DNA from: Ascidia mentula
Lineage: Eukaryota; Chordata; Ascidiacea; Phlebobranchia; Ascidiidae
NCBI GenBank assembly: GCA_947561715.1
Contig: OX387198.1
Location: 5,952,001 to 6,016,000, forward strand
Length of the DNA: 64,000 nt
Direction of reading: 5' to 3'
Position numbers and translations under genes: made by a program. Shown piece after piece: positions 11,323 to 57,382 of the stretch. The notes under the pieces are model-generated. The model was not told where the DNA came from and made no database searches. It was given only the letters and a program-made list of their open reading frames with translations. Positions within the stretch are counted from its first letter, which is position 1; every line of letters begins with the position of its first letter.

Positions 11323-14300
11323 ATGATTAGTTACGTCAAGTCTTATGTACTTTTTTTGGAAATTGTATTGTTTTCGCAAGCATCAACAGGTACGACTTAT
11401 GGCAATAAGTACACATATATTTGAGAAATGAAAATAAACAACAAAGCTAACATTACTTCAGGCTGTGGCATTACCTTTGCTTCACTAAATGACACTATAT
11501 TAACTTTGTCCGATGACCTTGTTGATGCGAACACTGCACAAGAGAAATGTTCGTTGCTTGGTGGAAATCTTGCCTTGACTAATGACCAGAATATCAAAGA
11601 GTCACTAATCCAAATAATGACAAATAAATACACCACAGGTACGCTTTGGTGCTTTACGATTAAACAGTATCATTACATGCGAGAAACTAATAATAAAAAT
11701 GTGCAAGGTTTAACACGAGTTTGGATTTTTTACGACTTTGTGAATGGGGAAAGGTTTAGATTTCAATTGAATCAGACAGAGGTCAGTTACTGGAAAAGTG
11801 CGAAGCTACTTGGAGTTCTCTCGTACGTCGATTTCTATACAAGGTAAATGCCACAGCTGCAATTGCATAAAAGTTCCTTCCGTGTAAAATTTGTGTCCTT
11901 CAGCAATACATCAATGAGTCCAATGGAAGTTAATTTCTGTGAAGCACCTAAATGGCCAAGAAAAAAATGGGCAGTTAGTTTTGGCTTCAATTGCGAGAGA
12001 ACCGTTCCATCCTGGAATGGTAAGTAAATATGTGCACTATGTCTACTTCAATTAAATAATATTTTGATATGTGTATTGTTGTCAGCATACACGTTACAAT
12101 GATGAGGTTTTATAATATTTTGTCGATATAGGATGGCGATGGAGGTTTTCTTTGTTTGCATCCGAAAAACCACAAGTCGGGTTCAAGCAAATATATTTAT
12201 ACAAGGCTCAACCTTCTGACTTCTACATGCTAAGAAACGTCAAAAGACCATATCGTACATTTGTTGTTTACAATAATTCTGCATACATCCCAGGTAACGC
12301 TTTGTTTTATTCTTACGAGAAATCCTAATTTACTCTTTTAATCATACCTTGTTAACTGAACCAAGACATCAATGTTATGATCGGGGCTCGTTACAATTCC
12401 CAACTTGGTGGTTGGTTTTGGAGCGACGGATCTCCTGAAAACTATTCTGTTTCCAACGTTACATCCTGTCAGCAGGGGGCGCTCCATTATGGAGATGGTT
12501 GGGAGAAATCGAGTGTTGATTGTGTTGGACAACCAGCTTACTACGCCTGTCAATTTAAACGTAAGTGTACAGTTGAATATAAAGTATACAAAAACATTTC
12601 TAACACTATAGTTTTGGTTGCAATACGTTATAGTCATACACAGGTCCCTTTACAAAACAAGTTCCTATGTCTCTATCGTCATAAAAGGACCTGTAACTCG
12701 TTATACTAATTTCATTTTTACATTGTGGTGGAGAAACTTGAAAAGAAGTCAGTTCAACATAGTGTAAAATATTCACGTTTATAAATCCAACACTTTTCCA
12801 GTAAACTAATCATGTTTTCAAGTTACTGCTTCCATCACTCGGCTCCATGATTCCGTGATAGTGGTGAGTTGGACTGGACTGGATCGCTTCATTGCAAAAC
12901 ACAACCTTTCAGTCGAGGTAACTAAATCTTAAGTACAGATTATTTTGCTCTTGTTTGTGATTGATAATAAGATTAAATTGAAGAAATTATTTGAAAAACT
13001 AGCTTGCCAGGAAATTCTATTGTACGAACTGTATGCATAACTCCGCTCGAGAAATGTCTGTGCATTATGTAGGTGGAAATCGTTTCAGAGGGATTGAGTA
13101 AAACGATATACGTACCCTACACGAACCTATCGAAACAGATCGAAAACATAAGTTGTTCCACAAACTACACTCTAAGAGTAAGTGTCCTCGCAAATTGATG
13201 CCAAGACATTTATAAACTTCCACTGAGAATATCTCAAAAGTTACGTCTCTATGTTGACAATGAACCTCATATAACCTATAGAAAGGTAAAAACATATTTG
13301 GCAACTTAGGTATCTGCATTGATTTCTGGCTGCGTGCAAGCAAACATCACAAACTCGGTGTCAAGTCTGCCGAAAATGAACAGTGAAGGTTGGTTTGTTT
13401 TGGTGAATTTTAGTTATTTTGAACCGGATCGGTATTAAAAGTGTTATTTAAGTGTTACCAAGAAAATGTTGAATTTCAATAAGATGTCGATTTTTGACAA
13501 TACTCACCTTTGCGACTTATGAGCTCTCATCAGTGCAGCTGGTAACTGAGGTCTATACGAACCTGATAAGCCGAGGCATTCATTTGCCTTACAAATACGT
13601 TTTGGTTCTGCAAAGTTTAAAATTTGTTCGTCTGTATTCCAATCACCACCGCATTTCATGTTCTATTTTGTCTGGGAGATTTGTTGTTCACTAAAATATC
13701 TAGATAAAACGTGTGTTTAGAAATCTACGCTTGTTCCATAAAGTTTTCGAACTTAGAGCATGCGATCACCACTCTGCTTTGTCCTGCAAACTATTGGAGG
13801 CAGAAATCAAGATTGTGTGGCAACGGGGTGTGTTCGGATGGACCAGTTTGCTTGGCTGCCATGCTAGATCAGTGGATCGACAGTACGTATATCATGTGAC
13901 ATTTTCTTCAAAATACATTGGCCTGGACAAAGAAATCTTCAATGCCATTTTATCAGGGGTATTTTAATTCAAGTCATGACGAATAGAAATGACGACTTTC
14001 ACCTCATTTGTCATCTTTCGCAGACGGTGGTGGACCCGTGACGGTTCACAAGAGTGATGATAGTGCGGATAATCGATACATTGGCGGAAGCAGAAATGGC
14101 GTCACCAGCAATACATGCAGAAAAGCGGGGAGCTCGTACTCGTTTAAAAGTAAACATTGCTAATGTTGCATCACATAAATTATATACTTTTTACGAGGAG
14201 CGAATAGATTTTGTTTTGCTTAAAGACGATGTTTTGAGCATTAAATCCAATTACATTTTCCAGTGACGTGTTCAGTGAACGGTGATTCGGCCACAGACAT

Positions 14301-14536
14301 AACACAAGTCTTTTGTCCATATGGATGCGGAAAGGAACCTGTTTACGGAACTGGAACCTACAGCATCCAGTCATCGGTGTGTAGCGCTGCCATACACGCC
14401 GGGAAACTATCAGGTTTAACGTAGATAATAATCTCAGAGTTTGATTGTGAAATGTAGACTTTTCTATGCAGGAAATAGAGGTGAAGTGAGATTTTATGCA
14501 GCTCCAGGGCAAAAAAACTATGTTGGATCTACATAA
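11323..14536 (+). CDS. Secreted C-type-lectin-like/FN3/double-LCCL protein
   Basis: Thirteen exons: 11323-11389, 11462-11638, 11708-11843, 11904-12019, 12132-12293, 12366-12560, 12823-12917, 13073-13177, 13310-13388, 13721-13882, 14024-14149, 14264-14413 and 14472-14536; 544 residues. Order: signal peptide (1-22); C-type-lectin-like module (about 23-165; '[10 protein letters not shown]', 'VNFCEAPKWPRKKW'); second lectin-like module (about 166-284; '[10 protein letters not shown]', '[13 protein letters not shown]', 'AYYACQ'); FN3 (about 285-377; 'VSW', 'NYTLRVSA'); LCCL 1 (about 378-473; 'LLCPANYW', 'VCLAAMLDQW', 'NGVTSN'); LCCL 2 from 474 ('QVFCPYGCG', 'SSVCSAAIHAG'). No TM helix, so probably secreted. 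The ectodomain exons match the downstream receptors; the LCCL pair replaces TM and tail at a class-1 intron. The TAA at 14534 cuts LCCL 2 just before its final strands. Confidence 0.8.
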
Positions 14537-15257: not shown

Positions 15258-18168
15258 ATGCATAAAACATTTGTGTATTTTCTATTAGTTTTGGATTATG
15301 CAGGGCTGGCAAAAGTAACATCAGGTAAGGCAAAGAGTCAAGGACATTTGAGATTGACGATCAGCGAATAACTGTTTTTGATAATAATTTAGATTGTGGC
15401 TTTGCCTCAACATCACTAAATGACACCCTATTAACTTTGTCCAATGATCTTGTTGATGCGAACACTGCACAAGAGAAATGTTCGTTGCTTGGTGGAAATC
15501 TTGCCATGACCAATGATCAGAATATCAAGGAGTCGATAGTTAAAGTAATGACAAATAAATATACAACTGGTACGCTCTGCGATTGACCTTAGACAAAACA
15601 TCATCAATACATTTGAACATACTAACAGTAAATGTGTACAAGGGTTAACAAGAGTTTGGACATTCTACGACTTTGTGGAGGGCGAAAGGTTTAGATTTCA
15701 AACAACTCCGGACGAGGTCAGTTACTGGAAAAGTGCGAAACAACTTGGTGTTCTCTGGTACCTCGATTTGTCTACAAGGTAAATGTCGTAGCAACAAATC
15801 TTTGCGAAAAACTTTCTGCAGTGTAATAATTTGTGTTTTTAGCAAAACATCAATGAGTCCAATGGAAGTTTTCTTCTGTGAAGCACCTGAATGGCCAAGA
15901 AAAAAATGGAAACTTAGTTTTGGCTTCAATTGCGAGACTAATATTCCAATGTGGAATGGTAAGTAAATAGGTGCACTATGTCTGCTTCAATTAAATAATA
16001 TTTTAATGTGTGAATTGTTGTCAGCATACACTTTACAATTATGAGGTTTTATAATATTTTGTCGGTATAGGATGGCGATGGAGGTTTTCTTTGTTTGCAT
16101 CCGAAAAACCACAAGTGGGGTTCAAGCAAATACATTTATACCGGACACAATCTTTTGGATACTACATGATAAGAAACGTCAAAAGACCATATCGTACATT
16201 TGTTGATTACAATATTTCTGTATACATCCCAGGTAACGCTTTGTTTTATTCTTACGAGAAATTCCAGTTAATTTTTGGCATTCTTTGTTTACTAACCCAA
16301 GATATCAATGTTATTATCGGGGCTCGTTACAATTCCCAACTTGGTGGTTGGTTTTGGAGCGACGGATCCCCTGCAAACTATTCTGTTTCCAACGTTACAT
16401 CCTGCCAGCAGGGGGCGCTCCATTATGGAGATGGTTGGGAGAAAGCGAGTGTTGATTGTGTTGGACAACCAGCTTACTACGCTTGTCAAATGAAATGTTA
16501 GTAACAGTGTGTATGAAAAAATGTTTTGAGTTTTGTGCTTAAAACGATTTAATATGTAGCAAAGTGATATATCATCCGCAATTATCTAAACATAAAATAA
16601 CGCAGTAATCTTTCATGCAATGGTATGATTGACAGGATCGCCCCACTGCGCATGTCCTCACTTGTCGATCACAGCTAACGTATCGCGATCAGTTTACAGG
16701 CTTCGCAGCCCAAATGTTTTTCAGATGTCGCTACCACTTGTCGTTAAAAATTGACTGACTTAGCTAGGCTGCAATGCCTGGGCTGGTTAGCTCAACTTTT
16801 TAAAACTAAGGGTGTTATTTTGTTGCACAAACAAGTTTTTGAAAGCTAAATAACGCGTTCGTAACAAATGTGAAATGTTGGTTTAATATATTGTTTAATA
16901 AAAGCACACCTTCCCATTTCAACTGAGCATATAACCATTTTTAAATCCAACGTATGTAAAGTCAGTTTCACATAAATACTTTGCAGTTGTTGCATCAGTG
17001 ACGAAAGTCGCAGGCAATTCCCCTCTTGTTGTTATTAGCTGGAATGGATTGACATCGCTTGTCAGGAATCATAACCTTTCTGCTAAGGTAACCTTGACAT
17101 GCATAATTTCCCAGTAATGTACATTTCCCAGACTTGATATATTTTTAGGTAGAAATCACTGTGTTGGAATTAATGCACTCTGTTTACGTGCCGTACGAAA
17201 ACGCATCAGTTCAATTAACAAACCTGAACTACTCAACAAACTACACTTTTCGGGTTGGTATTGAAGAGCATGTAGTATTGCCGTGTCTAATAAGAGGCAA
17301 ACGAAAGCAAATTCTCTCTTGTTTCATCAACAATTTTATTCATGTGAAATCATATAAATATCCGTCGCTTTATTGTTATCAATAGGTGTCAGCGTTGGTT
17401 TCTGGCTGCGTGCAAAAAAACGTCACGACATTCGTGTCAGTAACAACATCGGGCATTCCCACAACGACTCACTTCAACCAGAGCAGTAAAATGACGATTA
17501 AGTATACAAGCGTTTGTTAATTAAGAATTAATATTTCTTGCAGTAACAACATCAACCGGATTCTCCAAATCCAACACTAACAATGTCGAAAACTATATTC
17601 CCGGTTTGATAATTGGAGTGATTTCGGCTCTGATTGTTCTCGCAGCCATCCTAGTATTTGGTCTATTGTTCTATAAACGAAGGTGAATGCGACTGATTAC
17701 ACATTTTACCTACGATATAAAGGGTAATTAGAATCGCATGGCATGTTTCATTTCGCTTCGTTATGCGATGTGTAAGTCCTATTTCCTAATTAGAAGTTTT
17801 GGTTCATCAAAGAACGCCACGTTGGTTGTTTGGTTTTAATAAAAACATTTATCCGCGAACTTGTAAACGTTTTGACGGATTCAAATACAGATACGACATG
17901 TCCAAACTAACCATTTTGGAACAAGCAAAAAATCAATCATGCTGTCCAAAAACAGCAGACCTTGCCAATGAATCACATCAGCGAGTAACGGAAGAGGAAG
18001 GCTATCTTTCATCAAACAGTTAGTAGCGAGGTTTATTTTTTAATTGCCATTAAACTATGAGAATGTTAAACGCGCTTGACAGAGCATCGAACAACTGACC
18101 AGATTACGTATGACAATGTCCCACCTTCCTCTCATCAACCAAATCACGCGTACGAGAGTATGAAGTGA
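15258..18168 (+). CDS. Lectin-like/FN3 receptor with ITIM-like tail (intact copy)
   Basis: Twelve exons: 15258-15324, 15393-15569, 15643-15778, 15843-15958, 16071-16232, 16302-16496, 16987-17087, 17149-17253, 17386-17485, 17544-17682, 17891-18018 and 18083-18168; 503 residues with no break. Signal peptide 1-22; C-type-lectin-like module 1 about 23-165; module 2 about 166-284; FN3 about 285-386 ('VISWNGL', 'NYTFRVSALVSGC', 'TTSGIP'); TM about 405-430, then 'KRR'. The tail has Tyr434 ('RYDMSK'), Tyr471 ('EEGYLSS'), Tyr485 in 'ITYDNV' (fits the ITIM consensus I/V/L/S-x-Y-x-x-I/V/L) and Tyr499 in 'AYESMK' (YxxM, the PI3K p85 SH2 site type). ITIMs recruit SH2 phosphatases when phosphorylated, so an inhibitory surface receptor is likely. 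No ITIM receptor with this ectodomain is known to me. Confidence 0.8.
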
Positions 18169-20317: not shown

Positions 20318-23300
20318 ATGTTCACCAAGTTTGTGTCTGTTCTGCTCGTTTTAGAAAATGTGGGGATGTCAATGGCAAGAAACGGTGAGCCTTAAAAGAC
20401 AATAAAATTCGATAAAAAGGACCAACAAGTAATTGCGTTCATCTTTTTTTAGATTGCGGCCTCGTGTCAACAGCATTCAATGACACCATATTAACTTTGT
20501 CCGATGATCTTGTTGATGCGAACACTGGACAAGAGAAATGTTCTTTGCTTGGTGGAAATCTAACCATGACTGATGACCAGAATATCAACGAGTTATTAAT
20601 TCGATAAATGACAGATAAATATACATCAGGTACGCTGTGAGAGCCTATTTAAATGGAAGCCGTATCAATACATTTGTACAAACCAACAGTGTAAATGTAT
20701 AAGGTTTAACACGAGTTTGGACTTTCTACGACTTTGTGGACGAGGAAAGGTTTAGATTTCAAAAAACTCCGATCGAGGTTAGTTACTGGAAAAGTGCGAA
20801 AAAACTTGGACCTCCAGTTCTCTGGTACCTGGATTTATCTACAAGGTAAATGTCAAAACAATAACAATGTAGGGAATATTTTTACACATTTAGTGATCAA
20901 CTACTTTGTTAGTTCTTCCTGGATATAAAAAGTATCCGTAAAATTCCGTCCATGTAATTGTTTGTGTTCTTTAGGAAAACACCAATGAGTCCAATCGAAG
21001 TTTTTTTCTGCGAAGCACCTACGTGGCCAAGAAAAAAATGGGGATTGGGTGTGGGCAAGAATTGCGATGGGGGTGGTGAGTAAACGTTACTACTACTCTA
21101 ACGTAATGTTCCAATATAAGGCATGTTGTTTGTATACGTGATTGTAAAACGTTACTTTTTGTGCATTGTTTCAGGTTGGGTATTGCGCTTTTCTTTGTTT
21201 GCTTCAGAAAAACAACAAGCAGGATTTAAGCAAATATATTTATATGAAAGTGAAACCAAGGGATATCAAATGATAAGAAATGTCAACAGCTCATACAGAA
21301 CGTTTGTTAATTTCCGTAGATCTGCATTTATCCCGGGTAACATTTTAACTCGTTTGAAAAATCACGAATAAGATTTATTTATTGTTCACAGACATCAATG
21401 TTATGATCGGGGCTCGTTACAATTCCCAACTTGGTGGTTGGTTTTGGACCGACGGATCTCCTGTAAACTATTCTGTTTCCAACGTTACATCCTGCCAGCA
21501 GGGGACGCTCTATTATGGAGATGGTTGGGAGAAATCGACTGTTAATTGCGTTGGACAACCAGCTTACTACGCCTGTCAAATTAAATGTTAGTATGTAACA
21601 AAGTGTGTAAAAATTACCTAAATTTTGTGTTATTAAAGATTTTATTATGTAGCAAAGTGATGTATCATCCACAAATAGGTAACAAAACATAAAATAACGC
21701 AGTAATATTTCATGCAATGGCATGATTGGCAGGATCGCCCCACTGCGCATCTCCTCACTTGTAGATCACAGCTAAAGTATCGCGATCAGTTTACAGGTTT
21801 CGCAGCCTAAAATGTTTCAGATCTCGCTCAGGCTTGTCGAGAAGAACTGGCTGACTCAGCTAAACTGCAATGCCTGGGTTGTGAATCTGGTTAGTCCATC
21901 GTCGTGAGATACAAGTTTACCAGGAGCTTGATTTTTCGGATCTCGCTCCGACTCTTGTTGCTATGCAAAACTTTTTTAAATTAAGGGTGTTATTTTGTTG
22001 CACAAAACAAGTTTTTCTAAGCTAAATAACGCTTTGGTAATCAATGTAAAATATTGGTTTAATATATTGTTTGGTAAAAGCACATCTTCCCATTTTAACT
22101 GAGCATATACCAATTTTAAAATCCTCAACATATGTAACGTCAGTTCAACTTAAATACTTTTTAGTTGTTGCATCAGTGACGAAAGTCGCAGGCAATTCCC
22201 CTCTTGTTGTGATTAGCTGGAATGGATTGACATCGCTTGTCAGGAATCATAACCTTTCTGCTAAGGTAAACTTGACCGACATGATTCCTCAATAATTTAC
22301 ATTTTCCAGACTTGATATCATTTTAGGTAGAAATCACTGTATTGGAATTAAGCCACTCAGTTTACGTGCCTTACGAAAACGCATCAATTCAATTAACAAA
22401 CCTGCATTACTCAACAAATTACACTTTTCGGGTTGGTATTGAAGAGCATATAGTATTGCCGTGTCTAATAAGAGACAAACGAAAACACAATCTCTCTTGT
22501 TTCACATACAATTTCAAACATGTCTAAGCATATAAATGTCAGTCACTTTATTCTCAATAGGTGTCAGCGTTTCTTTCTGGCTGCGTGCAAGAAAACGTCA
22601 CGACATTCGTGTCGGTAACAACATCGGGCATTCCCCCAACGGCTCACTTCAACCAGAGCAGTAAAATGACGATTAAGTATACAAGCGTTTGTTAATTAGG
22701 AATTAATATTTCTTGCAGTAACAACATCAAACGGATTTCCCGAGTCCAACAGTAACAATATCGAAAACTATATTCCCAGTTTACTAATTGGAGTGATTTC
22801 GGCTATGCTTGTTCTCGCATCGATCCTTGTATTTGGTCTATTGTTCTATAAGCGAAGGTGAATGCGACTATTTACACATTTTACGTACGATGTAAAGGGT
22901 AATTAGAATCGCATGACATGTTTCATTTCCCTTCGTTGTGCGATGTGTACGTCCTATTTCTTAATTAGAAGTTGTGGTACATCAAAGAACGCCACGTTGG
23001 TTGTTTGGTTTGTTTAGTTTTAACAAAAACATGTATCCACGCACTTGTAAATGTTATGACGGATTAAAATACAAACAGGTACGACATGTCCAAACTAACC
23101 ATTTTGGAACAATCAAAAAATCCATTAGGCGATCCAGGAAAATCTCACCTTGCCAATGTATCACATCAGATAGTAACAGAAGAGGAAGGCAACCTTTCAT
23201 CAAACAGTTAGTAGCGAGGTTTGTTTTTCAATTACCGTTAAACTATGTGAATGTAAAATGCACTTGACAGAGCATCAAACAACTGACCAGATTACGTATG

Positions 23301-23356
23301 ACAACGTCCCCCCTTCCTCTCATCAACCAAATCACGCGTACGAAAGTATGAAGTGA
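20318..23356 (+). pseudogene. Lectin-like/FN3 ITIM receptor copy with early nonsense codon
   Basis: Twelve exons with the same structure as the 15258 gene: 20318-20384, 20453-20629, 20704-20845, 20975-21075, 21175-21336, 21392-21586, 22165-22265, 22327-22431, 22561-22660, 22719-22857, 23079-23206 and 23271-23356. All junctions and phases are intact, but exon 2 has an in-frame TAA at 20605-20607 (CGA TAA ATG, where paralogues have CGG TTA ATG or similar), about 73 residues into the protein. Downstream reading is otherwise open: FN3 '[13 protein letters not shown]', TM 'LLIGVISAMLVLASILVFGL', tail with 'ITYDNV' and 'AYESMK'. The membrane-distal tail tyrosine is lost ('EEGNLSS' for 'EEGYLSS'). 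The otherwise intact structure suggests a young or polymorphic null allele. Confidence 0.75.
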
Positions 23357-24226
23357 CGTAACAGCTTTCTTTACGGGATGGATTTAAATTTTTCGAACAT
23401 CAGTCAAGGATATGGTGATAAATTCTAAACAACCATTTTTTTAATATTTTCCAATACGTTCAATATTTGTAATGTTTTCCATTCTGCGCAGTTTTGAGCA
23501 GAATTTCTTCAATGTCATTTTGTTTGTAATTAAAAAATTTGATTTCAACCTTCATATATCCAAGATGATCATTTTCTGGCTGTACAATAAAAAACATTTA
23601 CTGTTAGTTGTGTTTGACTCGAGGTGTTTATTCGGACTGGGAGCAGAACTAGGCTGGGTCAATGTAATTTATAGGCCTAATTTAGTCCCAGTACACGACT
23701 CAACGCCAAGTCCAGCGACAGCAAAATATCATCGTTTGGAAATAACATTTTATTGGCGCAAAGCTTTGTTTTTCGTGTTTGTTTAAATTCTGCTTCCAGT
23801 CGCATTAAAGTATTATAGTTCTGCTCATGGCGTTGTGATTTGTTGCAGTAACCAGCCTCAATATTTCAAAACTCACGCTTTGTTGTGGATTAAATATGGC
23901 ATTTGCCCTCATGCTTCTTAAACGTTTAACCTGTGTGTTCATCTCACAACCAAGCGTGGGATATAAAATATTTACGGGAGTCGAAAGCGGTACACTAAAA
24001 AACACAACACCAAACACTACACACAACACTAAAGCGGTTGCGGCTATATTTGTAAGCACTTCAGAAAAGAGGCAAAGCGAATTTTAGATGGCGAAAAATT
24101 CATGCAAAAGAGCACTCTGCACGCTTCGGTGCACGCAGTTTGTGGCCCGTTCAACGAGGTCGCCACAACAACATGTTTTACGTTGTCATGTTAAGCACAC
24201 CTTGGGAAATAAGCCTTATACTACAC
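23357..24226. other. 3' flank, duplicated, no gene
   Basis: Resembles the 3' flank of the 15258 gene (18283-18740 and 18880-19170), including the shared word 'GCACGCTTCGGTGCAC'. No exon recognised. Confidence 0.5.
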
Positions 24227-24745
24227 CTTGTGTTTGGTCTATTGTTCTATAAACGAAGGTGAATGCGACTGAGTGCACATTAACTTACAATGTAATGCGT
24301 ATTGTAAATAGGTAATCAACTTACAATTAAATAACAAGTGTCATTTGTCTTGGCATTGCGACGTGCTTATATTGTTTATTAAGTAGAGCATTCAGAGCAG
24401 TCAACAACCTGAAACGTGTAGTTTGGTTGGTCTATTTTTATTAAAATGTTATGTCGGACTTAAATACAACCAGACACGACATGTTCAAACCAATTAATTT
24501 TCAACAAACAATAAATCAATCTGGCTCTTTAGAAAAATCTTTCCATAACAATATATCACACAACCCAGCATCAAAAGTGGAAGGCCAGCTTTCGCCAAAC
24601 GGTAGGTAGATTTTTATTTTAATAGCTGTAACTGTGTAATCATATACAATACTTGACAGAACATCAAACAACTGGCCAGATTACGTATGACAACGTCCAA
24701 CCTTCCTCTTGCCAACAAAATCACGTGAATGAAAGTATGAAGTGA
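24227..24745 (+). pseudogene. Relic of an ITIM-receptor TM end and tail
   Basis: 24227-24258 matches the end of the TM exon ('LVFGLLFYKR'). 24474-24601 matches tail exon 11 (128 bp, same phases; begins 'RHDMFK' where intact copies have 'RYDMSK'). 24660-24745 matches the last exon, keeps 'ITYDNV' but reads 'VNESMK' in place of 'AYESMK', so the YxxM tyrosine is lost. No lectin, FN3 or complete TM exon precedes it. It is a decayed 3' fragment from a further duplication, sitting between two full copies. Confidence 0.75.
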
Positions 24746-32400: not shown

Positions 32401-33399
32401 ACTCTTATTGTGGAAGAACTTTCGGAAAGTCACTTGTATAAATTAGCCACAATTGTGATTACATCTTCATCAAAATCTTTCGTACGTTTGACAAACTAAA
32501 ACGTAGATTGTATTTAATGATGAAGAAAGTTTTGTAAAATGCGTTTGCAAAATGCCACTTTTTTAATGTTTAAAAGTCATGTCAAAATTTGAAGTGAATA
32601 TCATTGTAAAATATAGTTTAAAACACCTAAAGGTTTTTACCACTTGCGTTCAGACTGACACTCTGATGACATTGGTACAAGTAAAGGGATGGAGTGAAGT
32701 TAAGAAACCTCTAAAGGAAGTGGAGTTTTTTGAAGTGATTGAAGCCGTGCAAGCGATGAAGAGAGATAGGAACTGTCGTTGTGTGTTGGTCATGTGCAGG
32801 TAAACATAAACCTAAATATTTACGAATATATCAATAAACCCTTAAGCCTAAAAGAAATAAGAAAAGCCTGTAACCATTAACGTAGCCACGTGGAAAGACC
32901 CATATCCTTTTCAAAGTTTTAGAAAAACATTCAAACCTCGCCAAAATGTCACGCTGACTGCGCTACTAGCCATAACGCATTACTTCTTTGTCTCTTTAAA
33001 TTTGCGGTATAGTCATTTAAGTGTTTTATGTTTTCGTGTAGAAATTTGATGGTACTGCACACAGTTTTCCAGAGTACAGTAAACAAATCTTTACACACTA
33101 TTACATTTGATATTGTTGCAGCAATGGCAGAACGAGGACTGGTACTTTTATTGCTCTGACAAGAATAATTGAGCGTCTGAAGACTCAGCAAAGGGTGGAC
33201 GTTTTCCGAACTGTGAAAGATTTACGAGACATGAGACCAAACATGCTGGATGAGGAAGTAATTACGTTTTAACTACTTCCTCATATACCGCTGTTAAACT
33301 ATATTGCATGACTTTTATTTTAAGGTGCTCTACAAGTGTTGCTACTCCGTGGTTTTGAAATACTTGGATGATTTCAGCACATACTCCAACTGCAAATGA
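26468..33399 (+). CDS. Receptor protein tyrosine phosphatase with lectin-like/FN3 ectodomain (copy 1)
   Basis: Twenty-five exons, 1033 residues: 26468-26534, 26603-26779, 26834-26975, 27265-27365, 27528-27686, 27756-27950, 28113-28213, 28377-28481, 28613-28709, 28761-28935, 29112-29179, 29379-29518, 29841-29937, 29997-30199, 30919-31050, 31105-31244, 31448-31583, 31645-31748, 31862-31950, 32022-32095, 32175-32300, 32365-32481, 32654-32799, 33122-33257 and 33325-33399. Signal 1-22; lectin-like modules to about 280; FN3 281-381; Asn-rich stalk 382-413; TM 414-437; D1 about 530-780 with '[14 protein letters not shown]', 'TTWPDHGVP' (Asp668) and '[10 protein letters not shown]' (Cys699), so catalytically complete; D2 about 800-1033 with Cys963 in '[10 protein letters not shown]' but WPD replaced by 'GWSEV' and His by Met, so probably inactive. 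D1 should dephosphorylate phosphotyrosine at the membrane. Very likely functional. Confidence 0.85.
28782..28857 (+). repeat. AAC-rich microsatellite coding the Asn stalk
   Basis: Inside exon 10 of the phosphatase gene, AAC/ACA repeats code runs of Asn ('[12 protein letters not shown]', '[13 protein letters not shown]') directly before the TM helix. The homologous exon at 41215 instead has a 12-residue repeat. Such repeats change length easily, so the stalk is probably length-variable among alleles. Confidence 0.75.
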
Positions 33400-39213: not shown

Positions 39214-42200
39214 ATGTTTTGTAAATTTGCATTTGCTCTGTTACTTTTTGGAATAACATTTGTGCCAAAGGTTACAGCTGGTAAGCCTTTATCGAAACAA
39301 ACAACAGAAATAATATTTGAAATCATCTCCTAACTGTAAAAAATGGTCATAGTATATAAATAACTTTTTTAGATTGTGGTCTCACTTCAACGGTTTTAAA
39401 TGACACCGTATTAACTTTGTCCGATGAACTCGTTGATGCGAATGCTGCACAAGAGAAATGTTCGTTGCTTGGTGGAAATCTAACCATGACTGATGACCAA
39501 AATATCAACGAGTCGTTAATTCGGTTAATGACAGATAAATATACATCAGGTACGCTGTGAGAGCCTATTTAAATGGAAGCCGTATCAATACATTTGTACA
39601 AACTAACAGTTAATTGTCAAAAGGTTTAACACGAGTTTGGACTTTCTACGACTTTGTGGACGGGGAAAGGTTTAGATTTCAAAAAACTCCCGACGAGTTC
39701 GATTACTGGAAAAGTGCGAAAAAACTTGTACCTCCAGTTCTCTGGTACCTGGATTTATCTACAAGGTAAATGTCAAAACAATAACAATCTAGGGAATATT
39801 TTGACACATTTATTGATCAACAACTTCGTTAGTTGTTCGTGGAGAGGAAAAATATCCGTAAAATTCCGTCCATGTAATTGTTTGTGTTCTTTAGAAAAAC
39901 AACAATGAGCCCAGTCGAAGTTTTTTTCTGTGAAGCACCTGAGTGGTCAAGAAAAAAATGGGGAGTGGGTGTTGGCAAGAATTGCGCGGGGAGTGGTGAG
40001 TAAACGTTACTACTTCACTAACGTAATGTTCCAATTTAAGGCATGTTGTTTGTACAAGTGGTTGTAAAACGTTACTTTTTGTGCATTGTTTCAGGTTGGG
40101 AATTGCGCTTTTCTTTGTTTGCTTCAGAAAAACAACAAGCAGGATTTAAGCAAATATATTTATATCAAAGTGAAATCATGGGATATCAAATGTTAAGAAG
40201 TGTCAACAGCTCATACAGAACGTTCGTTGTTTTCCGTAAATCTGCATTTATCCCGGGTAACATTTTAACTCGTTTGAAAAATCACAAATAAGATGTATTT
40301 ATTGTTCACAGACATCAATGTTATGATCGGGGCTCGTCACCATTCCCAACTTATTGGTTGGTTTTGGAGCGACGGATCTCCTGCAAACTACTCTGCTTCC
40401 AATGTTACATCCTGCCAGCAGGGAGCGCTCCATCATGGAGATGGCTGGGAGAAATCGAGTGTCGATTGCGTGGGACAACCAGCTTACTACGCCTGTCAAA
40501 TGAAACGCAAGTGCTTTTGCAATCAAATACTAAAATAGATTGTTTCAGACGCATTGTTTAAAATAATAGCGGTGTTTCATGTTGAAACGTGCATATATTA
40601 CTAATTGTAATACTAATTGATTCAACGTTTGCCCATTTGTTTGTAGTTGTCGTGTTTGTGAAAAAATATCCGTGCAATTCTTCTATTGCTGATATAACTT
40701 GGAGCGGACTGGAGCAATTTATTGGAAGTCAAAACCTTTCGGCCGAGGTAACTTTAACTACAGTGCATTGGTAATATTCGCTGATGGGCGAAAACTTGTT
40801 GCAGCTTTCGTATTTTTTTTTGTTTTTCAGATGGAAATTACCGTGGTTGAGATGCGACAGACTTTTTACGTGCCGTATGCTAATCTATCGATTCAAATCG
40901 AAAATTTAAACATCTCCACGACCTACAATATCAGGGTTGATACAAATCGAAAATCGTTTACCTCTGTGCCGTAATGTCTTTACACAATGCCATACAATAT
41001 AGAAATGTAATTCGAACCCCAGACATGTACCAATAATAATGCCTTCTTTTTGTCTGCAGGTCTCAGCATTTCTAACCGGTTGCGTAAAAACAAATGTCTC
41101 CACTGTACTTGAGATTTCGACTTCGGGTATTCCCCCAGAAAGCTGCTTTCCGCAAGGTAACAATACCACAAGATTATTTCTTGCGCTTTTTTACCATTGA
41201 TTGTGCCCTGGCAGACACTACCGTCGAGTCCGGTAGCAAAACTATCGTCGAGTCCGGTAGCAACACTACTGCAGCAATCTCCACCAACAATTCACCCACA
41301 GTGATGTTGGTTTGCATAATATTAGCTCTTTTCATTATTGTGGGAATCATTGTCGGATTCTGGTACTACAGGCGAAGGTGGAGATCATACTATTTTGTAG
41401 ACAAATTTTGTAGACGTTGCCATTAATGATCTGTGACAATTGATCCCTTATTTTAATTAAATCATAAAGTAAGGCGTATCACTGCCTTGTTGCTAAGTTT
41501 TCTTTTTCGATATTTTGATTCAAAACAAAAGTGCCATTATTTACCTTTATCAGACAATATCGGCAAACGAAATCGGATGCAATAGAAATTACAACAACGC
41601 CTCCTCTTGGCCATGGTGAAGGTACGGCGTTTTTCATTTCTCTGTCTGCAACCTATTTGTGTACATTACAGCAAACATCGAACATCTTAAAACTGCATAA
41701 GAAATATTTGTAACTTTGCATCAAAACGCACAGCAAATGGAAAGGCAAAAATTCTGTATTCTGCTTTTGTTTTTTGTTCAGATGCGTCTCAGTCCAACGG
41801 CATTTACCAAAACGTCTCGTTCGTGGTCGACGCTACTAGTAAGAACAATCCTAAATCTAGAGGGCTTTTTAGCGTTTACCAGAAAAATGCTGCGGCGGGT
41901 TTTCGTTTTTTCAAAGGAGAGTTTCAAGTAAGTTGATCCACAAACGAAGCTATTTGCTTTACTGTTTTAATGCGAAAGAACCGCCCATTCTTAATCTTAA
42001 AGAAGAGGGAATGCAATGTTTTTATCACAAAACTTTAAGTGTATACCTACCAAAAATAGAAGATGCCAGAAAGAAATTTAATGGAATACGATGTTCGATA
42101 GCGGTGTGGTTTTATACTAGGACTAGACTGTACTAATTACAGGAAGTTGACAAACAAAGCAAGGATAGACAACAATCTTATACGGTTTCGCAACTTCCCG

Positions 42201-45200
42201 AAAACGCCACGCGAAACAGATACAAAAATATTTACCCGTGTAAGTGACAAAAATGACTCAAAACAATTTTGCTGTAGTTATTGATGCAATCCTGTTACAG
42301 ACGATCATGCCCGAGTAATATTGAAGGAAAAGGAAGACAACGATTACATCAACGCTGCTTATATACCGGGTTACAGCAACAAGAAGAAGTTCATCGCTAC
42401 CCAAGGGCCTAAGCAGGAGACGATCAATGATTTCTGGCTGATGGTTTGGCAAGAAAACTCAACAATAATTGTGATGCTCACTGGTCTGATGGAAAAGGGA
42501 AAGGTTGGTCCTCTAACGTGATCGGGCCAAGACTGGCATTTGTATACGTCCTAGATCAAAATGCCACCAAATCCTCGGAACCTATACACGTGCATAAACA
42601 AGAAAGCGAACGTAACGTAAATATTGGAAACCGCTTCGCCGTGAAATTTCTTTTTCGAACATTAGCTCTTGTCAGTTTTTATGAGACAAACATCCCCTTT
42701 TATTTGCAATTCCCCCTTCAGTGACGATTAGAATTAAGTTGACATTCAAATCTGTTTCTAGTCAAAATGCGAACAATATTGGCCCAACGTCGGTTCTCAC
42801 CTAGAAGTAACCCCAGGTTTAAAAGTACAAGCACAGCAAGAAGTGCTTTTGGGTGGAATCTACGAAAGGAAGTTTCTACTGTGGCACGAAGAGGTAACAC
42901 ATTTTGTAATTAATCGCTGAATACAAACCCGAAACTCATTGTTTTCTTTGTAGTTTGCATCCATAGAAGTAAGTGTTTTCTCACAACCTGAAAGTATTGT
43001 GCTATGTCCACTGACATGGAAAGTATTGTCTTATGTCTGCTGACATAGAAAGTATTGTGTTATGTTTACTGGCATTAAAAATACTGTGTTTGTACACCGA
43101 GGTTGCACGTCACGAGACCTTTCTTACAAGTACATCCGCTTATAGTGCGGGTTGTGTATTAACAACGTTATTCAAAATATTTCAGGAAAAACGTATCGTT
43201 ACCCAACTCCAATACACAACCTGGCCAGACCATGGAGTTCCTGTCACTACAACAAACATGATCTACCTACGTAAGATGGTGGAAGATTTGCACAAGACTT
43301 CAGCTCCTGTAATTGTTCACTGCAGGTAGAGCAACACATAAAGTTTTAGGTTTTGAACCGTATCCGAGTAGAATGTTGCGCTGCAAGAAGCATTACTGTG
43401 ATAGAATTTTAGTATATGGCTCGTGTAAAAATTGCTTCTTTGGTAGCCTATATGTTGTTTGGGGTTGTCTAAACCTGCTTCAATGTAACCGAATGCTGCT
43501 TCAATAATGTACGATAACCCGCGTTGGTGTTTTAGTGCTGGTGTTGGTCGGTCTGGAACTTATATTGCCATGGACAGCCTGTTTCACGAATTGGACGACA
43601 AAGGAAATGTCGACGTCCCGCAGACTGTACTACGGATGAGGACAAATAGAATCGACATGATTCAGAACCTGGTACATAAATCTACCGCAAAGGCATAGTA
43701 TTCTAAAAATAAACGTACTTTCGTTTACAGAAACAATACATATTCCTGTATAAGTTGTTAGTGGAACGAGAGGGTCTAGAAGTGGAAACAGACAGAGATG
43801 TAATTGAACTTCAGTCAATGAGTTCTGATGAAATGTAAGAACCCAATAAAAAATATTGGCTAAGAGTGTGATAATTTATTGCCTGATCCGGTGGCTCATC
43901 AATCTGTTTAATTTGCTTAATGTGTCCGAATTCAATGCTAATTATAACTTTACACGTGAATTTTTAGGACAATGATGCAAAAATCTGAGTACAAAGCCTT
44001 GTCTGGTTGGCGATACGGAGAGGGTTGGCTTGAAGGAACCCCCGACTTAACCACTTGTATGATTACATTTAATTTATGCCTTTTTTAATGACTAACATTA
44101 TTTACACATACAAATGTAGACAAAAACACTGCCCTCGGAATTTGGGATGAAGATATTAACGGAGTGAGACATTTCAATGTATCGTTCATAAAGGTAAAAA
44201 AACATTCGGTTTGGCAAATAATTTCACATACAAGCAAGTATGCCATATTTGTTAGGAACAAGACACTTCAGAGTGTTTCATAGCTGCCCAAATTCCACCA
44301 AATGACCAGATGGAGTTATTTTGGAAAATGGCTGTACAAAATGGCACGCGTACGGTTGTGGATTTGAACATGGCATTTCAGGTACAACCGGTTTAAACTT
44401 TAGAAACAAAGGGAGTTTTATCTATGTATACATTTTATATAGGTGTCCAAAGACAAACCTTTACGTTGCGGTGAAGTTACCCTTACTGTTGAGCAACTCA
44501 CGGAATATCACCCGTATAAAATGGCCACACTCATGATTTCATCGTCATCGAAATCCTTTGTAAGATTGAAGGAAACGAAACTAGGCTACTGTTATAGAAA
44601 CAATAGGGCCAATAACGATAAGTGAGCGACAGGCAATGCCATCGTGTTTTAATCGCCTGACTGGTTCTCCTCCAAACCGTCACTATAGTCACCCAGCTGA
44701 TGAAATCTATTAGACCCAGAAACAGAGGCACTGTCTTTAACTAATATTGCCTAATATTCTTACATTACTATATCATACATTAGGTTTATAGGCTTCCCAG
44801 CGATGGCATTGCAGCTTAGTTAAGTCAGCCACTTTTTTTCTGACAAGTCGGAGCACTGCGTTACTATTACAAAATTTATTTTGCGTACCTTATATCGTTT
44901 ACCCTAAACACTCAGGTTGACCAGCCGATGACATTCATACAAGTAAAGGGATGGAGTGAAGTTAAGAAACCACCAAAAGAAGTGGAGTTTGTTGAAGTGA
45001 TTGAAGCCGTGCAAGGGATAAAGAGAGATAGCAACCGTCGTTGTGTGTTGGTCATGTGCAGGTGAACTAACAGGGCCCAGAATATAGCTTTTAAATTAAA
45101 GAGGCATTCTATGATATCCAGTCATTGTAGGAATTTCAGCAAATGAACGATTTTCAAATGTTATGCGTGTAATACCTATTTTGTAGCAATGGCAGAACGA

Positions 45201-45473
45201 GGACTGGTACTTTTATTGCTCTGACAAGAATCCTTGAACGCCTTAAGACTCAAAAACGAGTGGATGTTTTCCGAACTGTAAAAGACTTACGAGACATGCG
45301 ACCAAACATGCTGGATGACAAAGTAGGCCAATTGTTTCGTATTTCCCTGTTTCGTTATTAGCTGGCTGGATTATCTTGTTTACCATTTATTGTCTAAGGA
45401 GCTCTACGTGTATTGCTACTCTGTGGTTCTGAAGTATCTGGATGGTTTCAGCACATACTCCAACTACAAATGA
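39214..45473 (+). CDS. Receptor protein tyrosine phosphatase with lectin-like/FN3 ectodomain (copy 2)
   Basis: Twenty-five exons, 1032 residues: 39214-39280, 39373-39549, 39624-39765, 39895-39995, 40095-40256, 40312-40506, 40647-40747, 40831-40935, 41060-41156, 41215-41377, 41554-41621, 41782-41927, 42143-42239, 42301-42503, 42762-42893, 43186-43325, 43536-43671, 43731-43834, 43968-44056, 44120-44193, 44256-44381, 44443-44559, 44916-45061, 45187-45322 and 45399-45473. Same order as the 26468 gene. The stalk carries a repeat ('[17 protein letters not shown]') in place of the Asn runs. Juxtamembrane '[10 protein letters not shown]' is a possible tyrosine site. D1 is complete ('TTWPDHGVP' Asp about 667; '[10 protein letters not shown]' Cys about 698). 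D2 keeps Cys in '[10 protein letters not shown]' but has 'GWSEV' for WPD, so it is probably a pseudophosphatase. Intron 6 appears to use a GC donor (40507). No break found. Confidence 0.85.
42990..43085. repeat. 29-bp minisatellite in intron 15 of the 39214 gene
   Basis: Three diverged tandem units starting 'GAAAGTATTGT' at 42990, 43019 and 43048. The other phosphatase gene lacks it at this place. Confidence 0.7.
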
Positions 45474-47339: not shown

Positions 47340-48083
47340 GTTTCGAGTGGCAACGAAACACCCTTTGCCTGTGTGATGTCATAACGTGATATATTTACAA
47401 CCAGGTGCCACAACTCCAAATCAGCGGCCTCTGACCAATCATCACAGCCTTGTGAATTGGTCGATCCACAGAATAGTTCTGCCAATCATTCACATCGCTC
47501 AATCACGAACGAGGGAGTCCACGAAGCACCAATCAGTCAGTAGAATATATACCTACCTCACACTACGCTATAGTTACTAGTTAGTAGCACATTACATGAT
47601 TCCCAATCAGGGTGCGGTGTCGCTCTGAGGTTATATTTTAACCTTCAGGGGTGCCGCGGGATTTTTCTTTATTTTCACAATGGTAATTTTTCACCATACG
47701 GTTTATCGGTTGTGTAATGCTATATCACGATACCATTGTTTATTGTTTATAATGATATTAGCCTCCATCAACAATCAGACATGAAGGCTTATTGCTTCAT
47801 AAGTGGCGGTAGTCGATTGGTTTGACGCCATTGAGAGCCGCAATATCTTCATAAATTCCATAAGGGTTCTGTAATCAAATAAAAGTTAGGAATCAATGTA
47901 GTCGCATATACACCTTGATATTTGTACCTTATACTATGCGTTGTATTTGAGTTAGCGTAATAATGCGGATATTTTGCTTGGCAGAAATTCAAACCAGAAT
48001 ATCCAACATAGGGCTTGGTTACTTATACCAATGTTTCACCTTCGCCCGATGAAACAAACAACGTTTACGAAAGTGTGCAGTGA
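47340..48083 (+). pseudogene. Duplicated alternative ITIM tail, frameshifted
   Basis: Near-identical copy of 36549-37298. Tail exon 11 is at 47405-47535 (131 bp, same donor). The last exon, 47985-48083, has lost 5 bp near its start (AAACCAG for AAACGATACCAG), which shifts the frame; the 'Y.NV' and 'VYESVQ' region is still visible out of frame. No ectodomain or TM exon precedes it, because the retroelement lies on the left. A relic of a segmental duplication. Confidence 0.75.
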
Positions 48084-48365
48084 CGTCATTACTTTTCTTC
48101 ATTTGTTTTTATATCATTTATGGTTGCCAAAGATGCAAAACATTTTTGTCGATATTTTGCATTGCGTGCAATTTGTGTCATAATTTTATTCACATAGCGT
48201 TCGTCGCAGTAAAACTCAATTTCAATACAGATATACTTAAATTTTCGATTGCTAGTGACGTGTGTTAAGTTATTGATTTTTCGAAAAACAAAATATACGA
48301 ATACGTTTGTGCAGACAGTAGTTGCATACTAATGGCATAGTTTTGCATGGTTTGTCTTATCAGAA

Positions 48366-48582
48366 GTTCTAAATAAACTAGGCAAAGATGGTTAGCAGGC
48401 TCATACGGTTTCATACCTTCCCTAGAACGCCACGCAAAACAGATACAAACATATTTACCTGTGTAAGTGACACAGAGAGACACAGTTATCACAACATTTT
48501 GGTTTGAAACAACCATGTTTGTGATATACATTTCACCAACGCTGCTTATATACCGGGTTACAGCAACGAGACGAAGTTCATT
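48366..48582 (+). pseudogene. Phosphatase relic, exon 13 plus start of exon 14
   Basis: 48366-48462 is a 97-bp copy of exon 13 with the same TAG stop as 38127-38223, and its acceptor AG is mutated (GAA precedes it). 48535-48582 matches the '[10 protein letters not shown]' part of exon 14, then breaks straight into intron sequence ahead of an ITIM-receptor FN3 exon. This is a clear recombination junction between a phosphatase copy and an ITIM-receptor copy. Confidence 0.75.
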
Positions 48583-48601
48583 TAACATCAACAATTTGCA
48601 G

Positions 48602-49785
48602 TTGTTGCATCAGTGACGAAAGTTGCAAGCAGTCCCTCTGTAGTTGTTATTAGCTGGAATGGAATGCGGTCCCTTATTGAGAATCAGAACCTTTCTGCCA
48701 AGGTAATTCTTAACTAACACGTTTCCTCAATGATTTCCTATAACCATATTATTTCAGGTTGAAATCAATTCATTCGAGTTAATGTACTCTGTTTACGTGC
48801 CATACGAAAACGCATCAGTTCAATTAACTCACCTTAACTACTCAACAAACTACACTTTTCGGGTTGGTATTTTTCGATATCTAAAAGATCAAATAACATT
48901 ATCGTCCCTAATAGAGACAAATAAAAGTAAAGTATATCTTGTCTCACCTAAAATTCAAAACATGTCCAAGCATATAAATGTCCGTCGCTTTATTGCCGAT
49001 AGGTGTCAGCGTTGATTTCCGGTTGCGTGCAAGAAAACGTCACGACATTCCTGGAGGTTACAACATCGGGTATTCCCCCAACGACTCACTTCAACCAGAG
49101 CAGTAAAATAACAATTAATTATATAATCGTTTGTTAATTTAGAGTTCAATATATTTTAGTAACAACTTCAACCGGATTTCCTGAGTCCAACAGTAGCAAT
49201 GTCGAAAACTATATTCCCAGTTTACTAATTGGTGTGATTTCGGCTCTGCTTGTTCTCGCAGCCATCCTAGTGTTTGGTCTATTGTTCTATAAACGGAGGT
49301 GAATGCGACTATTTACACATTTTACCTACGATATAAAGGGTTTTCAGAATTGCATGGCATGTTTCATTTCCCTTCGTTGTGCGATGTGTACGTCCTATTA
49401 CCTAATTAGAGCTTTTGGTAGATCAAAAAACGTCACGTTGGTTGTTTGGTTTTTATAAAACATTTATCCACGAACTTCTAAACGTTATGACGGATTCAAA
49501 CAAAACCAGATACGACATATCCAAACTAACCGTTTTGGATCAAACTAAAAATCAATCAGGCGGTCCAAAAAAAGCTGACCTTGCCGATGTATCACATCAG
49601 CGAGTAACGGAAGAGGAAGGCTACCTTTCATCAAACAGTTAGTAGCGACGTTTTTTTTAATAACCGTTAAACTATGAGGATGTTAATCGTACTTGACAGA
49701 GCATCAAACAACTGACCAGATTACGTATGCCAACGTCCCACCTTCCTCTCATCAACCAAATCACGTGTACGAAAGTATGAAGTGA
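48602..49785 (+). pseudogene. Headless ITIM receptor (FN3-TM-tail only)
   Basis: Six exons equal in size and phase to exons 7-12 of the 15258 gene: 48602-48702, 48758-48862, 49003-49102, 49160-49298, 49510-49637 and 49700-49785. All are open: FN3 'VISWNGM', 'NYTFRVSALISGC'; TM 'LLIGVISALLVLAAILVFGL'; tail 'RYDISK', 'EEGYLSS', 'ITYANV' (ITIM fit) and 'VYESMK'. The lectin exons and signal exon are missing; the left neighbour is phosphatase relic sequence. As it stands it has no start. The intact coding suggests recent decapitation, or use as a donor for gene conversion or trans-splicing, which is untested. Confidence 0.75.
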
Positions 49786-51021: not shown

Positions 51022-52273
51022 ATGTTCATTAAGTTTGTGTCTGTTTTGCTCATTTTAGAAAATGTGGGGATGTCAATGATGGCAACAAACGGTAAGCCTT
51101 AAAGGCAATAAAAGTCGATGAAAAGGACCAACAAGACATTGCGTCATCTTTGTTTAGATTGCGGCCTCATATCATCATCATTAAATGACACCATATTAAC
51201 CTTGTCCGATGATCTTGTTGATGCAAATACTGCACAAGAGAAATGTTCGTTACTTGGTGGAAATCTAACCATGACTAATGACCAGTATATAAACGGGGCT
51301 TTAATTCAATTAATGAACAAACAGTATACCAAAGGTTTGTCAATTTTGTACATCATAGCCAAACAACTTGTCAATAAAGACATATGTCTATTTAAAATAT
51401 TTTAGGTTTGACACGACTTTGGATTTTCTATGATTTTGTGGGCGGGCATACATTTAGATTTCAAAACTATTCAACTAAAGTCAGTTACTGGAAAAGCGCA
51501 AAACAACTTGGTGTACTTTGGTACATAGATTTCTTCACAAGGTAACTTGTGAAGGCACCCAGTATTATTTGACAACGTTTGACAAAATTTAAACTTACTT
51601 AGAGGTTATACGAGAACTTTATCATTCAGAAGCCATGATAGAAATGAGGAAGAAATATTTTTCTGCGAGGCGCTTAATGCGGAAAGAAGAAAGTGGAGAG
51701 TGGGAGTTGGCAATAACTGTGAACAGCGCAAACCTGAATGGAATGGTACAAATATTGCTGTTGTTTGCACATGGCCAAAACTTTATTTGAAACGTTTCTG
51801 TCAAAAAAATTGATTTACCAGTTAGCTGTAAACTTATAACATCAGAACAATTTATTTTAATTATAAAACCAAGTTTAACACCACGTTAACATTTTCTGAT
51901 TACAGGATGGAATTTAAAATTTTCCTTGTTTGCTTCAAAAACACTTCAACCGGGATACAAGGAAGTATACGTATACCAAAACAATATCCATTCTAATATG
52001 CTACGACATATTAACCATCCCTACGGAATCTTTATTGAGTCTCGACAATCCACATTTACTCCAGGTTGAGATAAGCTTCGTTAAAATCTTGAACATTCAT
52101 GAGAAATAACAATCTTGTTTTCCTCGTTTTGAGATATCAATGTTATGATCGGGGCTCGTTACAATTCCCAACTTGGTGGTTGGTTTTGGAGCGACGAATC
52201 TCGTGCAAACTATTCTGTTTCAAACGTTACATCCTGCCAGCAAGGGGCGCTCCATTATGGTAATGGTTCATAA
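51022..52273 (+). pseudogene. Lectin-like receptor cut off inside the second lectin module
   Basis: Exons 51022-51091, 51158-51334, 51406-51541, 51630-51745, 51906-52064, then 52134 onward. Signal peptide '[16 protein letters not shown]', lectin-like module 1 and the start of module 2 are open and closest to the 26468 phosphatase gene ('[15 protein letters not shown]', '[13 protein letters not shown]'). Exon 6 runs to 'GALHYGN' and then sequence similarity ends at about 52262; TAA follows at 52271-52273. The rest of the gene is missing and repeat DNA begins. A secreted fragment of about 280 residues could be made, but the last Cys pair is lost. Confidence 0.75.
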
Positions 52274-57380: not shown

Positions 57381-57382
57381 AA

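Follow-up and report, generated by a model that had tools for sequence, protein, structure and literature searches.

We analyzed a window of 64,000 nucleotides from the ascidian Ascidia mentula (assembly GCA_947561715.1, contig OX387198.1, hereafter C2; positions 5952001-6016000 of the forward strand), which contains the start of a tandem array of receptor-like genes. Each gene appears to encode a lectin-like head in exons 2-6 and an FN3-like stalk in exons 7-9, followed by one of four outputs: two types of transmembrane tail, a transmembrane tandem tyrosine phosphatase (PTP), or a double LCCL module without a transmembrane segment. In this array, heads appear to have been passed repeatedly between output bodies. 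We lean slightly towards viewing these genes as a germline ascidian receptor family of interchangeable parts, which would resemble paired receptors, act in direct antagonism, and serve in immunity or allorecognition.

Architecture and extent of the array

The first-pass annotation had described nine exons shared, in the same order and phases, by six genes starting at positions 11323, 15258, 20318, 26468, 34542, and 39214 of the window (genes A to F), and our hand-built models confirm this. The exon sizes that it gave (67/177/136-142/101-116/159-162/195/95-101/105/79-100 bp) hold for five of the genes; gene E, at 34542, departs from them with an exon 1 of 70 bp and an exon 6 of 176 bp. Past exon 9, we recovered LCCL exons without a transmembrane segment (A), a transmembrane segment with a tail (B, C, and E), and a transmembrane segment with tandem PTP domains (D and F). 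The claim of three outputs was dropped, however, since there are four classes and two of them are tails. We refer to these classes as T (transmembrane segment and tail), U (the second tail type, found in E), P (transmembrane segment and tandem phosphatase), and L (double LCCL).

The 195.8-Mb assembly was searched using the ectodomain of B as query. Exon 6 was matched at least 48 times at C2:5.964-6.319 Mb (~355 kb; two partial matches), at least 28 times in a second, older array located 1.6 Mb away (C2:4.176-4.349 Mb), and at least four times outside both arrays. All the C2 exon-6 matches listed are on the + strand. We annotated 264 contiguous kb of the main array (the window and the adjoining 200 kb) with exon-wise tblastn followed by splice-site refinement; the remainder (6.216-6.33 Mb) is known from search matches alone. 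Models were built by hand with splice sites and phases in the window and automatically for most other copies. The dataset is the genomic sequence of one species in one assembly, and broken copies may partly represent alleles, sequence errors, or model faults.

The annotated stretch contains 38 copies, a recurrence that is beyond chance, and exons 2-9 are all present in 34 of them. Class T accounts for 19 copies, class P for eight, class L for five, and class U for four, with two copies left without an assigned class. These counts omit three inverted partial blocks (described below), and the exon annotation behind them covered the + strand. Exon 10 starts in phase 1 in all 31 scored copies, which indicates that the outputs are interchangeable in frame. 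Models read through in 12 of 19 copies of class T, 6/8 of class P, 1/4 of class U, and 2/5 of class L, so that each class retains at least one intact-reading copy. Copies g24 and g11, the latter with real stops that an automatic re-choice of acceptors had masked, were counted as broken in this tally, which may be too generous for g14 (short exon 6), g28 (weak exon 3 acceptor), and A (early end), and too strict for g08, g13, and g15, which may fail through the model alone. Three of the five L copies are short, lacking exons 4-8, and broken; this class thus rests on two full-length copies, one of which is A. Since the other, at C2:6120283, is complete and intact (562 amino acids), the early stop of A represents a lesion of that copy.

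Exchange of heads between outputs

In the following comparisons, "head" stands for exons 2-5 and "stalk" for exons 7-9, with exon 6 taken by itself. Trees were based on 33 of the 38 copies, after setting aside the two unassigned and the three short LCCL copies. Introns were compared in 32 copies and substitution rates in 29 copies, some of them broken, and identity means were computed on 27 copies, leaving out those with broken frames as well as g14, g15, and g24.

The comparison of trees suggested in the first-pass annotation was carried out as head, exon 6, and stalk trees scored by output class, and it bears out the idea of an ectodomain shared across outputs: the stalk is bound to class and the head hardly at all. 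In the stalk tree, each of the four classes forms one group (three class changes, the minimum; support of the P group: 94/80). The head tree requires eight class changes and the poorly resolved exon 6 tree requires seven. A head tree following the output was rejected by approximately unbiased topology tests, both for the monophyly of P (p-AU = 1.3e-39) and for that of T (p-AU = 1.8e-24). Forcing the larger division of the heads onto the stalk tree was also rejected (6e-10), the groups in this test having been named post hoc from the head tree.

Protein identities and introns present the same split. Heads are on average as similar between classes P and T (70.2% amino-acid identity) as within T (69.8%) or within P (70.1%), whereas stalks share 44.7% identity between P and T, against 86.6% within T and 76.3% within P. 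For example, gene C (tail) and gene F (phosphatase) are 85% identical in the head and 51% in the stalk, whereas the two phosphatase genes D and F are 59% and 66% identical, respectively. The lengths of introns 2-5 track the head: they are 74/129/99/55 in both F and C. The length of intron 6 mostly tracks the class (140 in F and 578 in C), with the exception of three class T copies (g13, g19, and g26) whose intron 6 measures 146 bp, against 471-591 otherwise. When copies were compared by their head introns, the closest copy came from another class in 11 of 32 cases (in one of them, g25, the resemblance is weak, at 59%); with stalk introns, this happened for a single copy of 32 (F, at 51%). Because the introns split as the proteins do, and because the switch lies near exon 6, these results indicate that heads were exchanged among signaling bodies. 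Exon 6 itself is homogenized (dS of 0.14, relative to 0.53 for exons 2-5 and 0.87 for exons 7-9) and, being near-identical in all copies, constitutes a natural anchor for recombination.

These trees, introns, and identities support the earlier view of one ectodomain design placed on phosphatase, tail, and secreted LCCL outputs. The exchange of heads makes the shared ectodomain a stronger case than first claimed.

We then compared these genes with the older array, based on a sample of 40 kb in which five copies were modeled and where variation in exon size stems partly from automatic models. Exons 2 (177 bp) and 6 (195 bp) kept their size in all five copies, and exons 5 (162 bp) and 7 (101 bp) in four of the five, whereas the remaining exons differ in size among copies. 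This array likewise holds phosphatase and tail outputs. Four of its genes form two tail/phosphatase pairs with head identities of 81% and 84%, against 54-55% for genes with the same output, and the members of the first pair are neighbors whose stalks are 45% identical, as in the main array. Both arrays therefore contain tail and phosphatase genes whose heads are alike. In an alignment of six main-array and four older sequences, the identity between arrays is 39-49% for heads and 71-75% for exon 6.

Selection on heads and outputs

The ratio of nonsynonymous to synonymous substitutions (dN/dS) between paralogues was estimated at 0.40 for exons 2-5, 0.33 for the stalk, 0.21 for the first phosphatase domain (D1), and 0.39 for the second (D2), although these values are approximate owing to gene conversion. 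They support a coding function of the modeled exons, and they show that heads and phosphatase are constrained. Within the head, exon 4 presents the highest ratio (0.53, and 0.83 within the larger head group), and we detected no strong sign of diversifying selection on whole heads among the 29 copies.

Ectodomain and LCCL domains

HMMER searches, also suggested in the first-pass annotation, gave a mixed picture: on whole proteins, LCCL and PTP exceed the Pfam cut-off and Lectin_C and fn3 are below it or absent. Lectin_C scored 17.4 bits in B, 17.8 in A, and 16.6 in the intact LCCL copy (g22), relative to a cut-off of 22.6, and the whole protein of F yielded no Lectin_C match. When exon 2 was joined directly to exon 6 in a test peptide, the score rose above the cut-off (27.4 for B and 23.6 for D). 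Exons 3-5 therefore seem to be a ~135-residue insertion splitting a C-type-lectin-like domain; neither of the two inserts tested matched a Pfam family above cut-off. The stalk is best described as FN3-like only: fn3 scored 18.7 bits on the whole B protein (cut-off 25) with no match in A or F, and 22.2 (B) and 15.0 (D) on isolated stalks, with no match for A.

The calcium and sugar site of C-type lectins is marked by the motif EPN or QPD together with WND. We did not find these motifs in exon 6 when inspecting an alignment of ten sequences by eye; the exon reads DGSPxN[YF]S and GWE[KQ]SSV. Sugar binding was dropped from our interpretation for this reason, and the absence of these motifs argues against canonical sugar binding but not against a lectin fold. 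A profile of the ten sequences searched against PDB returned dethiobiotin synthetase (E = 0.0066), which we take as a chance match, followed by KLRG1 (E = 0.15). Neither B nor the alignment matched any entry of a public protein collection, which is perhaps poor in animal sequences, so that this is no proof of a family limited to a single species.

LCCL matches are well above the cut-off of 22.6 bits and cover two stretches in each protein (80.2 bits in A and 108 bits in the copy at C2:6120283). Large families of LCCL-type exons were also found at C2:6.816-6.832 Mb (opposite strand) and on contigs C52, C1, and C70. The group on C2 shares about 80% identity with the exons that encode the LCCL output of the array, which suggests that this output was captured from another family, with this group as the likely donor.

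Phosphatase domains and tyrosine motifs

In gene F, the tandem PTP module scored 372.7 bits over two stretches. D1 carries the PTP loop HCS[AT]GVGRSG, the motif WPDHGVP, and the Q-loop in all eight class P genes; the NRYKN loop is present in seven of the eight, its absence in g11 being an effect of the model. D2 reads CSNGRTRTG and has no WPD motif, suggesting that it is probably not catalytic. Class P thus looks like a tandem receptor tyrosine phosphatase (RPTP) with an intact-looking D1, the signal peptide and transmembrane segment having been judged by eye. Among solved structures, RPTP alpha and epsilon come closest to the PTP part (E about 4e-116). In two copies (C2:6090434 and C2:6193911), the transmembrane exon of class P also encodes an extracellular poly-asparagine run next to the membrane, whose length is very different between the copies.

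The tails had been described as resembling immunoreceptor tyrosine-based inhibitory motifs (ITIMs), whose consensus is [SIVL]xYxx[ILV]. Matches to the last exon of class T, orphan exons included, read ITYxNV in 22 of 22 cases (x being D, A, V, or P), and those of class U read VTYTNV in five of five. All 27 therefore fit the consensus, and an ITIM reading is formally right for the main array. However, a similar motif, YQN[LV], precedes D1 in six of the eight phosphatase genes, the exceptions (CQNL and YQSL) being copies counted as broken. In the older array, three of the five non-phosphatase loci carry PTYMN[VI], where the proline at -2 breaks the consensus, and a fourth carries PTYMNP; no such tail motif was found in the fifth locus. 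The motif-bearing tails also contain QYENI (three loci) or QYETI (one locus) and a final VYEN or VYDN, and the two older phosphatase genes present PTYQNL and VTYPNL. We therefore dropped ITIM as the defining motif and favor reading it as a TYxN docking site.

Grb2-family SH2 domains require asparagine at position +2. Given this rule and the constant Y-x-N core, SH2 docking appears to be a better first guess for the tails than ITIM. The opposed signaling that was originally implied must be put conditionally, because the YxN core is common to tails and phosphatase genes. A review states that the ascidian Botryllus expresses Gads and Grb2, that neither LAT nor SLP-76 could be found in the genomes of ascidians, and that the core motifs of the FcoR receptors resemble the sites of these last two proteins (PMC12065747). 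Docking sites borne by the receptors themselves would fit this situation. As a separate observation, exon 11 of class T exists as two distinct sequence types, with a dN/dS of 1.45 across copies, and this membrane-proximal tail exon may itself be swapped.

Proposed mechanism and alternative explanations

The organization of the array is compatible with the following mechanism. Gene conversion or unequal crossing-over, probably anchored on exon 6, would move heads among outputs, and receptors with like heads but different outputs would then meet one ligand. Once phosphorylated, the TYxN sites of the tails could dock SH2 proteins, either of the Grb2/Gads type or, if they act as ITIMs, of the SHP type. 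The phosphatase forms, which have a similar YxN site and an intact-looking D1, would remove phosphate within the same cluster, and the LCCL form may act as a soluble competitor. We put forward only tentatively, and with more doubt than belief, the stricter proposal of a mix-and-match germline system in which each head specificity comes with a docker and a matching eraser, antagonism being enzymatic and not mediated by SHP.

Several results weigh against the mechanism proposed here. The heads are under purifying selection overall (0.40), and not under the diversifying selection expected of a receptor for pathogens or allorecognition. Four of the seven copies in the window are damaged and 15 of the 36 class-assigned copies do not read through, although some of the latter may be model faults. 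The head tree also retains clustering by class beyond that of shuffled data (no shuffle of all classes out of 200 was as low), although shuffling single classes gave values as low in 92 of 500 cases for P and 22 of 500 for T; the clustering comes mainly from classes U and L, whose heads form one group each, and from near-copies. The older array's second pair, whose members lie ~10 kb apart, has like stalks as well (77%), indicating that the change of output there lies past the stalk and not at exon 6. Furthermore, the tail motif does not tell activating from inhibitory receptors.

Random unequal crossing-over in a tandem array would also yield functionless chimeras. The array could be driven by birth and death, with head exchange as a by-product of unequal crossing-over, outputs that are not paired, and classes unrelated in their job. 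The broken copies, the orphan exon blocks, the three inverted partial blocks, and the low dS of exon 6 (0.14, compared to 0.53 and 0.87 for the exons on either side) would all be expected under such a process. Yet each class has kept at least one intact-reading copy, constraint acts on both D1 and the heads, and the older array again contains tail and phosphatase genes with like heads; we regard this scenario as rather unlikely. A classical ITIM pairing, with inhibition through SHP phosphatases recruited by the T and U tails in the manner of KIR or SIRP, would make the phosphatase a second inhibitory output without any opposition. This agrees with the 27 main-array last exons matching the consensus, but it accounts poorly for the proline at -2 in three older tails, for the additional YxN sites in that array (a QYENI common to three of the four tails with a motif, and the terminal VYEN or VYDN), and for an asparagine that stays constant at +2 next to a variable +1 (D/A/V/P/T/M), as in Grb2-type sites; we consider it unlikely. 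Finally, lectin-headed RPTPs of the alpha/epsilon type might regulate Src-family kinases where cells touch, in developmental or gamete adhesion, with tail and secreted forms as modulators. The nearest solved relatives of the PTP part point in this direction, but the number of copies, their turnover, and their lesions are more suggestive of recognition, which makes an adhesion role improbable.

Genes and fragments in the window

All the features of the array in the window are on the + strand, and only B, D, and F read as intact genes. Gene A (class L; 11323..14536) consists of exons 1-9 followed by four double-LCCL exons without a transmembrane segment; position 13721 is a likelier start for its first LCCL exon than 13757, as first modeled, and the last ~20 codons of the second LCCL domain are lost to an in-frame TAA (14534-14536). 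Gene B (class T; 15258..18168) encodes 503 amino acids, with exons 1-9, a transmembrane exon (17544-17682), and two tail exons (17891-18018 and 18083-18168) reading ITYDNV ... AYESMK. Gene C (class T; 20318..23356) has the same layout, with an in-frame TAA in exon 2 (20605-20607), and is followed by an orphan set of class T exons, 10-12, that lacks an ectodomain (24209..24742). Gene D (class P; 26468..33399) has 25 exons and encodes 1033 amino acids, comprising the ectodomain, the transmembrane segment, a juxtamembrane YQNL, and the tandem PTP domains with the D2 described above. Gene E (class U; 34542..37298) combines the ectodomain and a transmembrane segment with the second tail type, VTYTNV ... 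VYESVQ; a deletion of 19 nt in exon 6 shifts its frame. Gene F (class P; 39214..45473) also has 25 exons, encodes 1032 amino acids, and uses a GC donor past exon 6.

Further downstream, we found orphan class U tail exons, one of them with a stop, together with pieces of phosphatase exons 13/14 (47406..48582), then an orphan class T block of exons 7-12, with the head exons missing (48604..49782). A seventh copy (51022..52270) includes exons 1-5 and part of exon 6 and is cut off at ~52270, before satellite arrays at positions 52584-64000, in which the repeated unit measures 32 bp, 77 bp (51 copies), or 191 bp (35 copies). Beyond the window, three inverted partial blocks on the - strand, each made of exons 5-9 with a phosphatase-type stalk, lie near LCCL copies (C2:6.0442-6.0449, 6.1247-6.1254, and 6.2064-6.2073 Mb); a diverged class U-like last exon was found beside one of them.

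Upstream of the array (+ strand), positions 2096-8350 hold two adjacent genes that belong to a single unrecognized family; they encode an ectodomain with cysteines, a Ser/Thr-rich stalk, a transmembrane segment, and a short tail. The first of them, spliced by eye, matched no Pfam family above cut-off. A third, perhaps related gene occupies positions 8750-10900, adjoining the receptor array; by eye, its last exon seems to end with ENPYEELNEKVVVDNPLYRPFEKSST, which contains YxxL-like and NPxY-like tyrosine motifs.

Two other observations concern the animal itself. In its mitochondrial COX1 frame, 18 codons are AGA or AGG, including two that precede the likely start, in agreement with the ascidian code, and several of these 18 fall on glycines that we take to be conserved (IMIGGFGNW, GTGWTVYPPL, and LPGFGM). 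Glycosyl hydrolase family 6, which is not known from animals other than tunicates, is also matched twice in the nuclear genome (32.0 and 27.8 bits; cut-off 27).

Comparison with known receptor systems

Paired receptors are mainly seen as a vertebrate solution, with Ig or natural killer (NK) lectin ectodomains and tails bearing ITIMs or activating motifs (ITAMs). KIR, PIR, SIRP, and the lectin receptors of the NK complex all have paired outputs on a shared ectodomain. In the ascidian array, a shared ectodomain on different signaling parts is found for the head; the stalk of the main array is specific to the class. The head is C-type-lectin-like, as in NK receptors, and does not present the calcium-site motifs, although the match to KLRG1 is weak (E = 0.15). 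We know of no phosphatase or LCCL output for any of these vertebrate families. Class P shares with RPTP alpha and epsilon a transmembrane segment and tandem PTP domains with an active-looking D1, and RPTP alpha binds Grb2 through a pYxN site. In contrast to the short, glycosylated ectodomains of these two proteins, class P has a lectin-FN3 head common to receptors without a phosphatase, and its D2 has no WPD.

Another tandem array of the same genome, located at C72:16.91-17.20 Mb, contains genes with C-type lectin, Ig-like, and PTP parts, mostly with 7-8 kb per copy; a second, diverged lectin exon is interleaved on the opposite strand among many copies. As in the main array, a C-type lectin domain lies upstream of the PTP exons, but Ig-like segments replace FN3 (by eye, copy L035) and the lectin domain is not split (44.2 bits). 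D1 identity between the two arrays is 23-51% by PTP exon. In view of the C72 array, lectin-headed receptor phosphatases seem to be a theme of this animal and not an accident of one cluster.

Siglec-11/16 (PMC5701461) and the Xenopus CEACAM family, which comprises more than 80 genes (PMC5112662), are described in the accessible parts of these sources as paired receptors whose ligand-binding regions are matched by gene conversion. They resemble the array in having a shared ligand-binding region on different signaling parts, but differ in their Ig-type ectodomains and in opposing inhibitory to activating motifs, as far as these parts describe them. The array in turn has a split C-type-lectin-like head and includes receptor tyrosine phosphatase and secreted LCCL outputs. 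In Botryllus, FcoR is reported to comprise 53 loci encoded in pairs with fester genes; these are, like the array, an ascidian multigene family of type I transmembrane proteins with varying tyrosine motifs in the tail, including Y-x-x-I/L/V, but their ectodomain is of the Ig (V and C2) and sushi type, and a phosphatase or LCCL output is not mentioned in the accessible part of PMC12065747. This agrees with the earlier statement that the array does not match fester. Pfam searches with A, B, and F, run up to E = 10 under the usual HMMER filters, returned no Ig or sushi family. We found no published description of such a family in a literature search limited to one open-access library.

What would be new here is the logic of paired receptors in an invertebrate chordate, built on an unrelated ectodomain, with a receptor phosphatase among its outputs, and present in two arrays of differing divergence. 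The main array constitutes a natural record of the movement of heads among outputs, and it offers a concrete candidate family for the recognition of self and non-self or of microbes in ascidians. Should tail and phosphatase forms with like heads bind the same ligands, a single gene array would encode the kinase-phosphatase balance by which immune synapses are controlled.

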